Below are positions 49,510 to 51,604 of a stretch of 64,000 bases of DNA, piece by piece; positions within the stretch are counted from its first letter, which is position 1; each line of letters opens with the position of its first letter. The stretch comes from Guptibacillus hwajinpoensis. GTDB taxonomy: Bacteria > Bacillota > Bacilli > Bacillales > Guptibacillaceae. The position numbers were made by a program, and so were the translations under genes. Under the pieces are notes generated by a model. It did no database searches. It had not been told where the DNA came from and saw nothing but the letters and a program-made list of their open reading frames with translations. Location: positions 934,793 to 998,792 of the forward strand of contig NZ_LELK01000001.1 of the NCBI RefSeq assembly GCF_001039475.1, read 5' to 3'.

Positions 49510-51520
49510 TTACTTATCTTCAGGAAGAAGCGTATCGTTGCCTGATGCAGTTTCTTCCACTTGCTTATCTGCGTCAAGATTATGATGAGCACGTACGCGT
49601 GATTCAATTTCAGCTTCAATAGCCGGGTTTTCTTTCAAGAATTGTTTCGCATTTTCACGACCCTGTCCAAGACGTTCGCCTTCAAATGAGAACCATGAAC
49701 CGCTCTTTTGAACGATCTCAAGATTTGAACCAATATCAAGAATTTCACCCTGCTTCGAAATACCTTCACCGTACATTATATCAACTTCAGCTTGCTTAAA
49801 TGGTGGAGCAACCTTGTTCTTTACAACTTTAATACGAGTCTTGTTACCAACCATATCGTTACCTTGTTTAAGAGTTTCAGCACGACGCACTTCTAATCTA
49901 ACAGAGGAATAGAATTTAAGTGCACGTCCTCCTGGAGTTGTTTCTGGCGTAATCTATAGATTTTCCATTTCTATAGTGTGGACTATCTCTTCATCTCAAT
50001 AAATTGAGAGCCTTGCACTTCCAGCAGCAGCCTATCTTCTGCCGTACCCTACTAAGTTAACTCGATTTAGAGTTCTTTTCGGTAGTCTCTACACCTTCCT
50101 ATTTAAAGGCTTGGCACGGTATTACCCATACAATGGAGGGCTTCACCGTTAGCAGCATATTAATGCCACACCCTTAGGCAATAAGGTTCACAAGGTTTTT
50201 TAACTTGCTATCACTAGCAAGGGAAACCCATAGTAAACTCCTTAATTTTTTCTTTAACAATATCCAAATTTCCTAACTCAATTTCATTAATAGCTAAATA
50301 ATAATAACCTTGTGAGTTTAAAAATGCCGTTTTTCTTTTATCACGATCTATCACTATTGGGAGAGAGTGAGACCATGATCCATTTACATCTAAGCAATAC
50401 TTTCTACCTAAATAAAAATCAATTGACCATTTGTCAATTCTTTTTTGTTTGTGATAAGCAAGGTCTAACTCAATTAAAATCATCTCAACTTGTTGCTCAA
50501 TTAACGTGTCATAATTTTTCTTTCTCACGCTAACATCAAGTTCTTTTCTTCGTTTAGCAACACAAGCGTCAGAAACACCATATTTTTCGGCAATCTCTAC
50601 ATGAGATAGATAAGGATTTTTCAATTCCTCTAGAACTTCATCGGTTTTAGGCAAATAGATTTTCCAATGCCTTTCCCTTTGTAACCCTAAAAGATTAATA
50701 ATTTCCCCAACTCTTCTGTAATCAATGTTAATCGCTGTGGCAATTTCAGTAAGTTTAAGTTGATAATGTTCCTTTATAAAGTTTACTTGCCATTGTTCAA
50801 TATTTTTAAATGTTCTATCCCCAATTTTAACCGGCATTTTTTTCTCCATTTCACTATTATTTGAGATGGAAATTTGTATCTAAAGAGAAAAAACTAAGCA
50901 ACTAATCGTTGATTTCCGAACATAACCCCAACCTTTTCACGAATCTGGTTAATAAAGACCGCGGTTGTTTTGGACTTGTTAATTGCACCTGAAAGCTTAC
51001 GAAGCGCTTGGGACATTAGACGCGCCTGCAAACCAACGTGAGCATCTCCCATTTCACCTTCGATTTCTGCCTTTGGTACTAGGGCAGCTACGGAGTCAAC
51101 AACGACCATATCAACTGCACCGCTTCGTACAAGTGCTTCGGCAATTTCTAGGGCTTGTTCTCCTGTATCTGGTTGGGAAAGTAGTAGCTCATCGATATTA
51201 ACACCGAGTTTTTCTGCATAAACTGGATCAAGTGCATGTTCAGCATCTATAAATGCGGCTTGGCCGCCGTTTCGTTGTACTTCTGCGATAGCGTGAAGAG
51301 CAACAGTTGTTTTACCTGAAGATTCCGGACCGTATACTTCGATAACGCGTCCTCTTGGATATCCTCCTACACCGAGAGCAATATCGAGTGCTAGCGATCC
51401 AGTGGAAACAGTCGAGACCCTTTGCTCAGCTTGTTCGCCAAGTTTCATAATGGAACCTTTTCCGAATTGCTTTTCTATTTGTCTTAATGCCATATCTAAG
51501 GCAGCTTTGCGATCACTCAC
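49510..51520 (-). CDS. recA: RecA recombinase, interrupted by a group I intron
   Basis: Two exons: 51,520-50,912 (203 codons) and 49,947-49,510 (145 codons plus stop). Joined they give 348 residues, the length of B. subtilis RecA, with [18 protein letters not shown] continuous across the junction, in the L2 loop region just after the [12 protein letters not shown] block. Start is GTG at 51520 behind GAGGAGG ([20 protein letters not shown]). Walker A is GPESSGKTT, Walker [11 protein letters not shown]. Unspliced, the first exon would read four codons into the intron and stop (QRLVA), so splicing is essential for activity. It has a LexA box and strong promoter. It mediates strand exchange and the SOS response. 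Confidence 0.95.
49948..50911 (-). mobile_element. Group I intron in recA (964 bases)
   Basis: The 5' exon ends in T (GGAAAT) and the intron ends in G (GATTACG), as group I splicing requires. An internal guide GUUUUU, 17 bases into the intron, pairs with GGAAAU to form P1 with the U.G pair. The 3' core shows nested stems ACGGT/ACCGT and GCCC/GGGT (P4-P6 like), then P7 as AGAGACTA ... GATAGTCC. A CTATAG hairpin sits just before the 3' end. An endonuclease ORF occupies 50,214-50,837. Bacterial recA group I introns are known in B. anthracis and some phages. Confidence 0.92.
50214..50837 (-). CDS. Intron-encoded homing endonuclease, Vsr/EDxHD-like
   Basis: 207 residues from the ATG at 50837, six bases after GGAG; an ATG four codons upstream overlaps that site. 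Two helix-turn-helix-like units fill the N-terminal half ([24 protein letters not shown] and [24 protein letters not shown]). The C-terminal half has the Vsr-type nuclease pattern: Glu before [19 protein letters not shown], then SH, then [22 protein letters not shown] and a final Glu. This is the EDxHD arrangement of I-Bth0305I, which is also from a recA intron. No stop or frame break is seen, so the intron may still be mobile. Confidence 0.82.
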   Translation of the reverse strand: MPVKIGDRTFKNIEQWQVNFIKEHYQLKLTEIATAINIDYRRVGEIINLLGLQRERHWKIYLPKTDEVLEELKNPYLSHVEIAEKYGVSDACVAKRRKELDVSVRKKNYDTLIEQQVEMILIELDLAYHKQKRIDKWSIDFYLGRKYCLDVNGSWSHSLPIVIDRDKRKTAFLNSQGYYYLAINEIELGNLDIVKEKIKEFTMGFPC

Positions 51521-51553: not shown

Positions 51554-51604
51554 ATCATATCTCTTTTTTATCGATTTGCCAATAGAAAACCGAACATTTA
51601 TTCG
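51554..51604 (-). promoter_or_regulatory. recA promoter and LexA (SOS) box
   Basis: On the minus strand TTGGCA, 17-base spacer, TATGAT (51,554-51,582). Just upstream lies CGAATAAATGTTCG (51,591-51,604), one mismatch from the Gram-positive LexA consensus CGAAC-N4-GTTCG. SOS control is expected. Confidence 0.85.

Follow-up and report, generated by a model that had tools for sequence, protein, structure and literature searches.

A probable mobile group I intron with a putative EDxHD homing endonuclease interrupts a chromosomal recA gene of the Bacillales

Group I introns have been described in recA and nrdE of Bacillus species, and an excerpt of PMC3984707 attributes the B. anthracis case to Ko et al. 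2002. A homing endonuclease of the EDxHD type is exemplified by I-Bth0305I, for which an excerpt of PMC3943268 gives a target of close to 60 bp. An excerpt of PMC11879112 covers the His-Asp pair of Vsr together with the equivalent in I-Bth0305I. In Geobacillus kaustophilus, recA harbors an active group II intron (Chee and Takami 2005; excerpts of PMC3522654 and PMC4424553). The preprint PMC13405050 deals with LAGLIDADG enzymes. A direct search, which covered part of the literature, returned no paper on recA introns or on introns of Pseudalkalibacillus, and no survey of recA introns was among the matches listed. I-Bth0305I comes from a recA intron of phage 0305phi8-36, and the primary paper on it is reportedly that of Taylor et al. 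from 2011.

The window analyzed here is a stretch of 64,000 nucleotides (64 kb) whose minus strand carries a recA gene (51520-49510) interrupted by 964 bases. Joining the flanking exons yields a RecA of 348 residues that reads VMFGN-PETTPGG across the junction. The elements of the gene are:

50912..51520, minus strand: recA exon 1, RecA residues 1-203, ending in VMFGN (TIGR02012 match, E 7e-113)
49510..49947, minus strand: recA exon 2, RecA residues 204-348, starting with PETTPGG (TIGR02012 match, E 5.5e-54)
49948..50911, minus strand: group I intron of 964 nt (Rfam RF00028 match, same-site homologues, empty sites)
50894..50896, minus strand: TAG stop in the exon 1 frame, FGN-QRLVA-stop (exon-frame translation)
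51591..51604, minus strand: LexA-box-like site CGAATAAATGTTCG upstream of recA (9 of 10 consensus positions)

The exon products match positions 1-202 (exon 1) and 202-320 (exon 2) of the TIGR02012 RecA model. Exon joining and these matches bear out the split, the exact FGN-PETTPGG junction and the protein length proposed in the first-pass annotation, which had also predicted a truncated RecA from unspliced RNA and a dependence of the cell on splicing. The sequence agrees with both predictions. The exon 1 frame meets its stop after five intron codons, here as in 10 of the 11 introns of this type (after eight codons in G417), and no second RecA was found in the genome of the window (4.26 Mb, 14 contigs), where a third RecA-family match stayed below the cut-off. 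Since recA is single in this genome, full-length RecA depends on splicing. The insertion falls into codons which we take to be those of the DNA-binding loop L2. The LexA-box-like site, scored against a LexA-box consensus, lies 71-84 bases upstream of the recA start, and four sites as good exist in the 64 kb, itself included. By eye, recA and its neighboring genes look like those of Pseudalkalibacillus hwajinpoensis (L006), whose recA is interrupted at the same position by a shorter insert.

Four genomes with an insert near residue 203 (G432, G658, G685 and G744) had been listed with long open frames, and an intein was considered for them. The exon frame stops close to the junction in all four, after five codons in G685 and G744 and after four in G432 and G658, so that we do not claim an intein.

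A covariance-model search, as suggested in the first-pass annotation, gave a divided result: Rfam Intron_gpI (RF00028) matched the insert at 50245-49961 over the full model (E 5.2e-7), but the score of 35.4 bits lies under the curated cut-off of 50. No Rfam match above the curated cut-offs occurred anywhere in the window. The introns of G006 and G011 scored 30 bits, and in a scan of six loci from other genera, which left out L004 and L005, five gave 28-45 bits and one (L071, G578) no match at E 0.01. For structural comparison the cores of 11 introns were aligned (window, G417, G578, G593, G685, G743, G744, G006, G011, L004 and L005; mean column identity 83%); L006 was omitted because it resembles G006. 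The structure tested was one that we named ourselves, comprising P2, a hairpin before P3, P3, P4-P6a, P7, P8 and P9. The positions below rest on the alignment and the pairing test, except where another basis is given:

49981..50154, minus strand: core P3-P8
50154-50151/50043-50040, minus strand: P3, the least sure helix
50148-50144/50121-50117, minus strand: P4
50087-50083/49985-49981, minus strand: P7
50009-49994, minus strand: P8
50204..50221, minus strand: P2 hairpin, bearing the stop codon of the endonuclease ORF
49954..49976, minus strand: P9 hairpin
49948, minus strand: terminal G of the intron (G in 11 of 11 introns)

Across the 11 cores 97.8% of the 556 helix cells were paired, a value that dropped to 28-45% when the partners were slid. 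Two-sided changes were found in 12 of the 51 pairs, amounting to 37 cells compared with a shuffled mean of 12.3, and none of 500 shuffles reached this number. P4, P5, P6, P7 and P9 were invariant (P6a apart), so that covariation is no test of these helices. P3 has four pairs with one wobble change and one broken cell, and RNAalifold favors other long-range helices in this region. The covarying helices, the RF00028 match below cut-off, the terminal G, the P1 pairing present in all 11 introns and, in part, P10 together support the assignment to group I made at first pass.

A decayed ribozyme would leave the insert in the RNA and recA as a pseudogene, with a cell that is RecA-minus or makes RecA in two pieces. 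An Rfam score below the cut-off would be in line with such decay, and splicing is here a prediction from the sequence. In contrast, two-sided changes have preserved the helices in introns of different genera, and both recA exons stay open in 11 of 11 intron-bearing loci. A two-piece RecA is at odds with exon 2 of the window, in which no start is listed near the junction and the first lies at residue 20 of 145. We consider decay very unlikely and in the following treat the insert as a ribozyme that would remove itself from the RNA.

The pairings at the splice sites place the endonuclease ORF inside the ribozyme. The segments involved are:

50912..50917, minus strand: P1, 5' exon strand GGAAAU, codons GGA AAU (GGAAAT in 11 of 11 intron-bearing recA genes)
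50222..50227, minus strand: P1, guide strand GUUUCC within the intron, forming a U.G pair at the splice site (six of six pairs in 11 of 11)
50228..50233, minus strand: P10 guide strand CUAUGG, opposite the 3' exon CCAGA at 49947-49943 (pairing count)
50886..50898, minus strand: P1-extension stem, 5' strand CUUAGUUUUUUCU, which includes GUUUUU (duplex of -14.5 kcal/mol)
50241..50253, minus strand: P1-extension stem, 3' strand AGAAAAAAUUAAG, within the last codons of the ORF (duplex energy)

The guide GUUUCC overlaps the codons M-G-F-P-C-stop at the end of the ORF, which also form part of P2. As the guide falls into these last codons, the P1 loop encloses the endonuclease gene. Folding from the exon end to P2 gave a P1 pair probability of 0.98-0.99 across 684 bases in the window; among the other ten introns it was 0.84-0.99 in eight, 0.63-0.65 in G578 and 0.12 in G685. 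In the G417 intron of 307 nt nearly all of the 5' part is missing, yet GGGUUUCCC, common to all 11 introns, is kept. In the same intron (L065) an ORF remnant, FTLGFPC-stop, is read in one frame with recA (QFTLGFPC-stop), which looks like a deletion of the ORF starting directly behind the first intron codon. The P10 guide strand reads CUCUGG in five of the 11 introns. Five to six P10 pairs are formed in five introns, three plus one in another five including the window (three, a gap, one) and two plus one in G743; the pairing is weak in the window and in G743.

The energy of the P1-extension stem was reached by 9 (window), 10 (G578), 0 (G593), 0 (L004) and 56 (L005) of 500 simple shuffles. The ORF-less introns of G006 and G011 have a longer stem at this position (7 and 5 of 500 shuffles as good), G685, G743 and G744 a short hairpin (0, 4 and 9 of 200 shuffles), and G417 has none.

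At first pass P1 had been assigned differently, as GGAAAU paired with GUUUUU at 50894-50889, which would put the ORF outside P1. On paper these strands form six of six pairs in the window when wobbles are included. However, the computed pair probability is 0.0, GUUUUU yields no P10 and it overlaps the strand of the extension stem. Nor is the element conserved: in the first 60 nt of the other ten introns the only six-of-six stretch is GUUUCC itself, in four ORF-less ones. In the window the first 60 nt hold yet another such partner, AUUUCC. This assignment is highly improbable, and P1 is taken to be formed by GUUUCC at the end of the ORF.

The ORF in the intron has an intact frame, as initially stated:

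50214..50837, minus strand: EDxHD homing-endonuclease ORF of 207 aa, ATG at 50837 (intact frame)

An upstream ATG at 50849 would give 211 aa (50849-50214); AATGGAGAAAAAA precedes the ATG at 50837. The product matched the catalytic domain of I-Bth0305I (3r3p_A) with E 5.6e-16 by sequence and with E 2.8e-20 when a three-member profile was used. The same entry was the top fold match of the predicted structure (E 8.8e-5, TM-score 0.74 target-normalized; model mean pLDDT 77.6), in agreement with the EDxHD-type kinship recognized at first pass; a single-sequence structure model was poor in the nuclease half. Weak helix-turn-helix matches lie in the N-terminal half, the nuclease in the C-terminal half. 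Pfam gave sub-threshold matches only (DUF559 and others, including helix-turn-helix families), NCBIfam a sub-threshold match to Vsr and PHROGs weak matches to regulator, HNH and homing endonuclease families. E114, D140, H157 and D166, presumably the columns of the EDxHD motif, are invariant in the three intact copies (window, G578 and G593); in 3r3p E114 and D166 are conserved, and Ala stands in place of D140 and H157. Among the intact copies pN is about 0.2 compared with a pS of 0.73-0.77, which places the putative enzyme under purifying selection. Three of the 11 introns have an intact ORF, two a frameshifted one (L004 and L005) and six almost none; judged from these frames, intact, frameshifted and lost ORFs would be the stages expected of a homing cycle.

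Taken together, we are highly confident that the insert is a mobile group I intron in the L2 codons of recA, with its ORF in the P1 loop, that would remove itself from the RNA and home by means of the EDxHD enzyme. In the pre-mRNA, the guide UGG-GUUUCC, located behind the body of the endonuclease gene, would pair with the end of exon 1 (P1) and with CCAGA at the start of exon 2 (P10). The guide would be carried across the gene by a stem that joins the borders of the ORF, which places the gene in the P1 loop. Two transesterifications started by guanosine would then release the intron and produce a full-length RecA mRNA, while ribosomes on unspliced RNA would halt after five intron codons. The enzyme, translated separately, may cut intronless recA alleles, and repair of the break would copy the intron in. 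What the sequences themselves demonstrate is the anatomy of the locus, the exact empty sites, the lone recA, constraint acting on ribozyme and enzyme, and a patchy occurrence at one site; splicing, cleavage and homing are what we infer.

Comparison of the flanking sites in intronless relatives, suggested at first pass, supported the junction. In the genus of the window (14 genomes including its own) recA is split at residue 203 in three (G000, G006 and G011) and whole in 11. All 11 whole genes read FGN directly into PETTPGG and lack the insert; the junction bases in L010-L013 are identical to those of the window (TTCGGAAAT-CCAGAAACAACTCC), and the others show silent differences. Occupied and empty alleles thus exist at one exact recA site. 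Every one of the 11 recA genes with the intron has GGAAAT at this site, as do 12 of 45 intronless ones (Fisher 9e-6, ignoring kinship). Among the intronless genes it occurs in five of 11 within the genus and in seven of 34 elsewhere, the latter being those with a readable motif among 39 regions picked down the RecA score list with new families favored (five unreadable). The bias fits either the need for P1 or the target of the enzyme.

Intron core DNA was detected in nine of 397 genomes of the order (own genome included) with one match each, all at the same recA site; no match outside these recA loci appeared in this search. When the enzyme was searched across the class (398 genomes), the copy in the window was the sole match. 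A scan of genome contigs returned L004 and L005 (67 and 71% identity) and a weak match in L006, whose intron has no ORF.

This patchy occupation of one site could have arisen by vertical inheritance from a common ancestor with many losses instead of spread by homing. The intron tree is poorly resolved, with three of eight inner branches well supported, and the silent sites of recA and of the endonuclease are both near saturation between genera, so that silent divergence cannot date a transfer; to this extent descent with losses is accommodated. In a recA tree containing five of the 11 intronless genus members, however, an intronless partner was recovered for each of the window, G006 and G011 (supports 98/93, 97/93 and 80/77). 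Between the window and G744, which belongs to another family, the ribozyme core is 91.1% identical whereas recA third positions agree at 40-43%, which suggests transfer, although constraint on the ribozyme could contribute to this apparent difference. Moreover, purifying selection on the enzyme would have no evident cause without homing. Purely vertical descent is therefore unlikely in our view, and spread by homing is the reading we retain. An argument for recent transfer from silent sites (agreement of third positions at identical residues between the window and G578: 55.7% for the enzyme, 42.5% for recA exon 1) was dropped because of the saturation of both genes.

Carriage by a phage or plasmid was also considered, and no vector was found for intron or enzyme. 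Relatives of the enzyme were absent from phages and plasmids (tblastn, E 1e-3) and from viral contigs (single protein and alignment queries). The exact core DNA pattern had no match in viral contigs and the intron none in plasmids. A 92-residue stretch of 3r3p gave weak matches in 26 phage records (E 4e-5 to 1e-2, all below 60% identity); some of these are annotated as homing endonucleases, and phage 0305phi8-36 is absent among them. Matches of the ribozyme core in phages were partial only, the best covering 47% of the query at 75.7% identity in the ribonucleotide-reductase gene of Staphylococcus phage Machias.

Other group I introns were noticed in the genus. The genome of the window contains a second one outside the window (L025, C14:95448-95810; 82.3 bits), by eye in a ribonucleotide-reductase gene, with no ORF of at least 80 aa listed inside. 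A sister species has a group I intron at the end of what is, by eye, a flagellin gene (L027, G006:C4:60133-60451), and similar matches of 319-326 nt were seen in six other genomes of the genus.

A RecA search of the 397 genomes of the order (396 matched) was used to collect further interrupted genes, a gene being counted as in pieces when it gave at least two matches and the best of them scored poorly. This applied to 22 genomes, of which 21 were read and every one held an insert; in the remaining one (G573) recA lies on two contigs. Because genomes with one match of partial cover escape the criterion, the counts are lower bounds: at least 21 of the 397 genomes have an interrupted recA. The inserts occupy several sites; some are group I introns, some group I-like and some group II introns. 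The intron type of the window accounts for nine of the 21. Group I-like inserts lie one codon upstream of its site in G432 and G658, and inserts at VYG-PESSGK (Walker A) were found in G481, G735 and also G658. Eight genomes (G260, G504, G571, G580, G614, G635, G638 and G732) have group II introns in recA, called by RF00029 or RF02004 above cut-off, with reverse-transcriptase-like ORFs seen by eye. Two inserts in one recA occur in G504, G571, G614, G638 and G658. The group I-like inserts gave no match at E 0.01 in the first scan; with the insert alone, G481 reached 19.5 bits and G432 23.6 bits.

The group II introns (L067, L069, L070, L072, L074, L075, L076 and L079) sit at three sites or more, one of them DAEH-SLDP, and the recA genes L069, L070, L074 and L076 have two inserts each. 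By eye, the group I-like inserts at FG-N or VYG-PESSGK (L066, L068, L077 and L080) have a common 3' end and a GGT codon before them; L077 has one at each site. Seven genomes had two recA matches with a full-length best one, and the three examined proved to be second copies or a fragment. In L063 (G562) and L064 (G703) a second recA copy stands beside an intact one, the G703 copy with two stops.

The control gene rny, searched in 219 genomes, was matched in 218, with one match in 216. In the other two (G418 and G433; L132-L135) two abutting or overlapping matches were seen, the pattern expected of a frameshift or a sequencing error. In the same 219 genomes recA inserts number 11, or 12 with G573 (Fisher 9e-4 and 4e-4, for one control gene and with kinship ignored). 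In this order, recA has repeatedly been taken by unrelated introns, which is a more interesting result than the single intron.

A further-reaching idea is that recA of the Bacillales is a preferred landing gene for unrelated introns and that the overlap of ORF end and guide makes the present intron a switch; this is possible, though we tend to doubt it. If true, translation of the enzyme to its end would open P1 and the extension stem, and splicing would remove the enzyme gene from the mRNA. Enzyme and RecA would then be mutually exclusive outputs of one SOS-controlled transcript, and the break set by the enzyme in recA would raise the supply of the repair protein needed for homing. Independent of this idea, bearers of the intron allele must splice RNA for full RecA. 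Close species of the genus naturally carry recA with an enzyme-bearing intron, with an enzyme-less intron or with no intron, so that cost, homing and loss are measurable, and the ORF-in-P1 layout provides a direct test of interference between translation and splicing. In annotations, moreover, a split recA may be wrongly recorded as a broken gene.

The kind of element is already known, and the present one is a further instance and not a new class, as the first-pass annotation had concluded from the intron class, the kinship to I-Bth0305I and the recA introns already cited. It adds a well-formed case with natural alleles and a corrected anatomy, with the ORF inside the P1 loop and the guide within the end of the ORF. 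The recA intron of Bacillus anthracis, as far as the excerpt goes (Ko, Choi and Park 2002; PMC3984707), likewise belongs to group I and interrupts a chromosomal recA in the Bacillales. I-Bth0305I (PDB 3r3p) has a similar C-terminal nuclease domain, with 37-38% identity over about 90 residues, and differs in that the enzyme of the window is encoded in a bacterial chromosome. The introns in flagellin and ribonucleotide-reductase genes, one of each seen in the genus, are group I introns in protein genes like that of the window, but they occupy other genes and score 78-84 bits, above the RF00028 cut-off. The recA intron of Geobacillus kaustophilus, according to the excerpts cited above, belongs to another ribozyme class, group II, as do those at other recA sites in eight of the genomes searched here.
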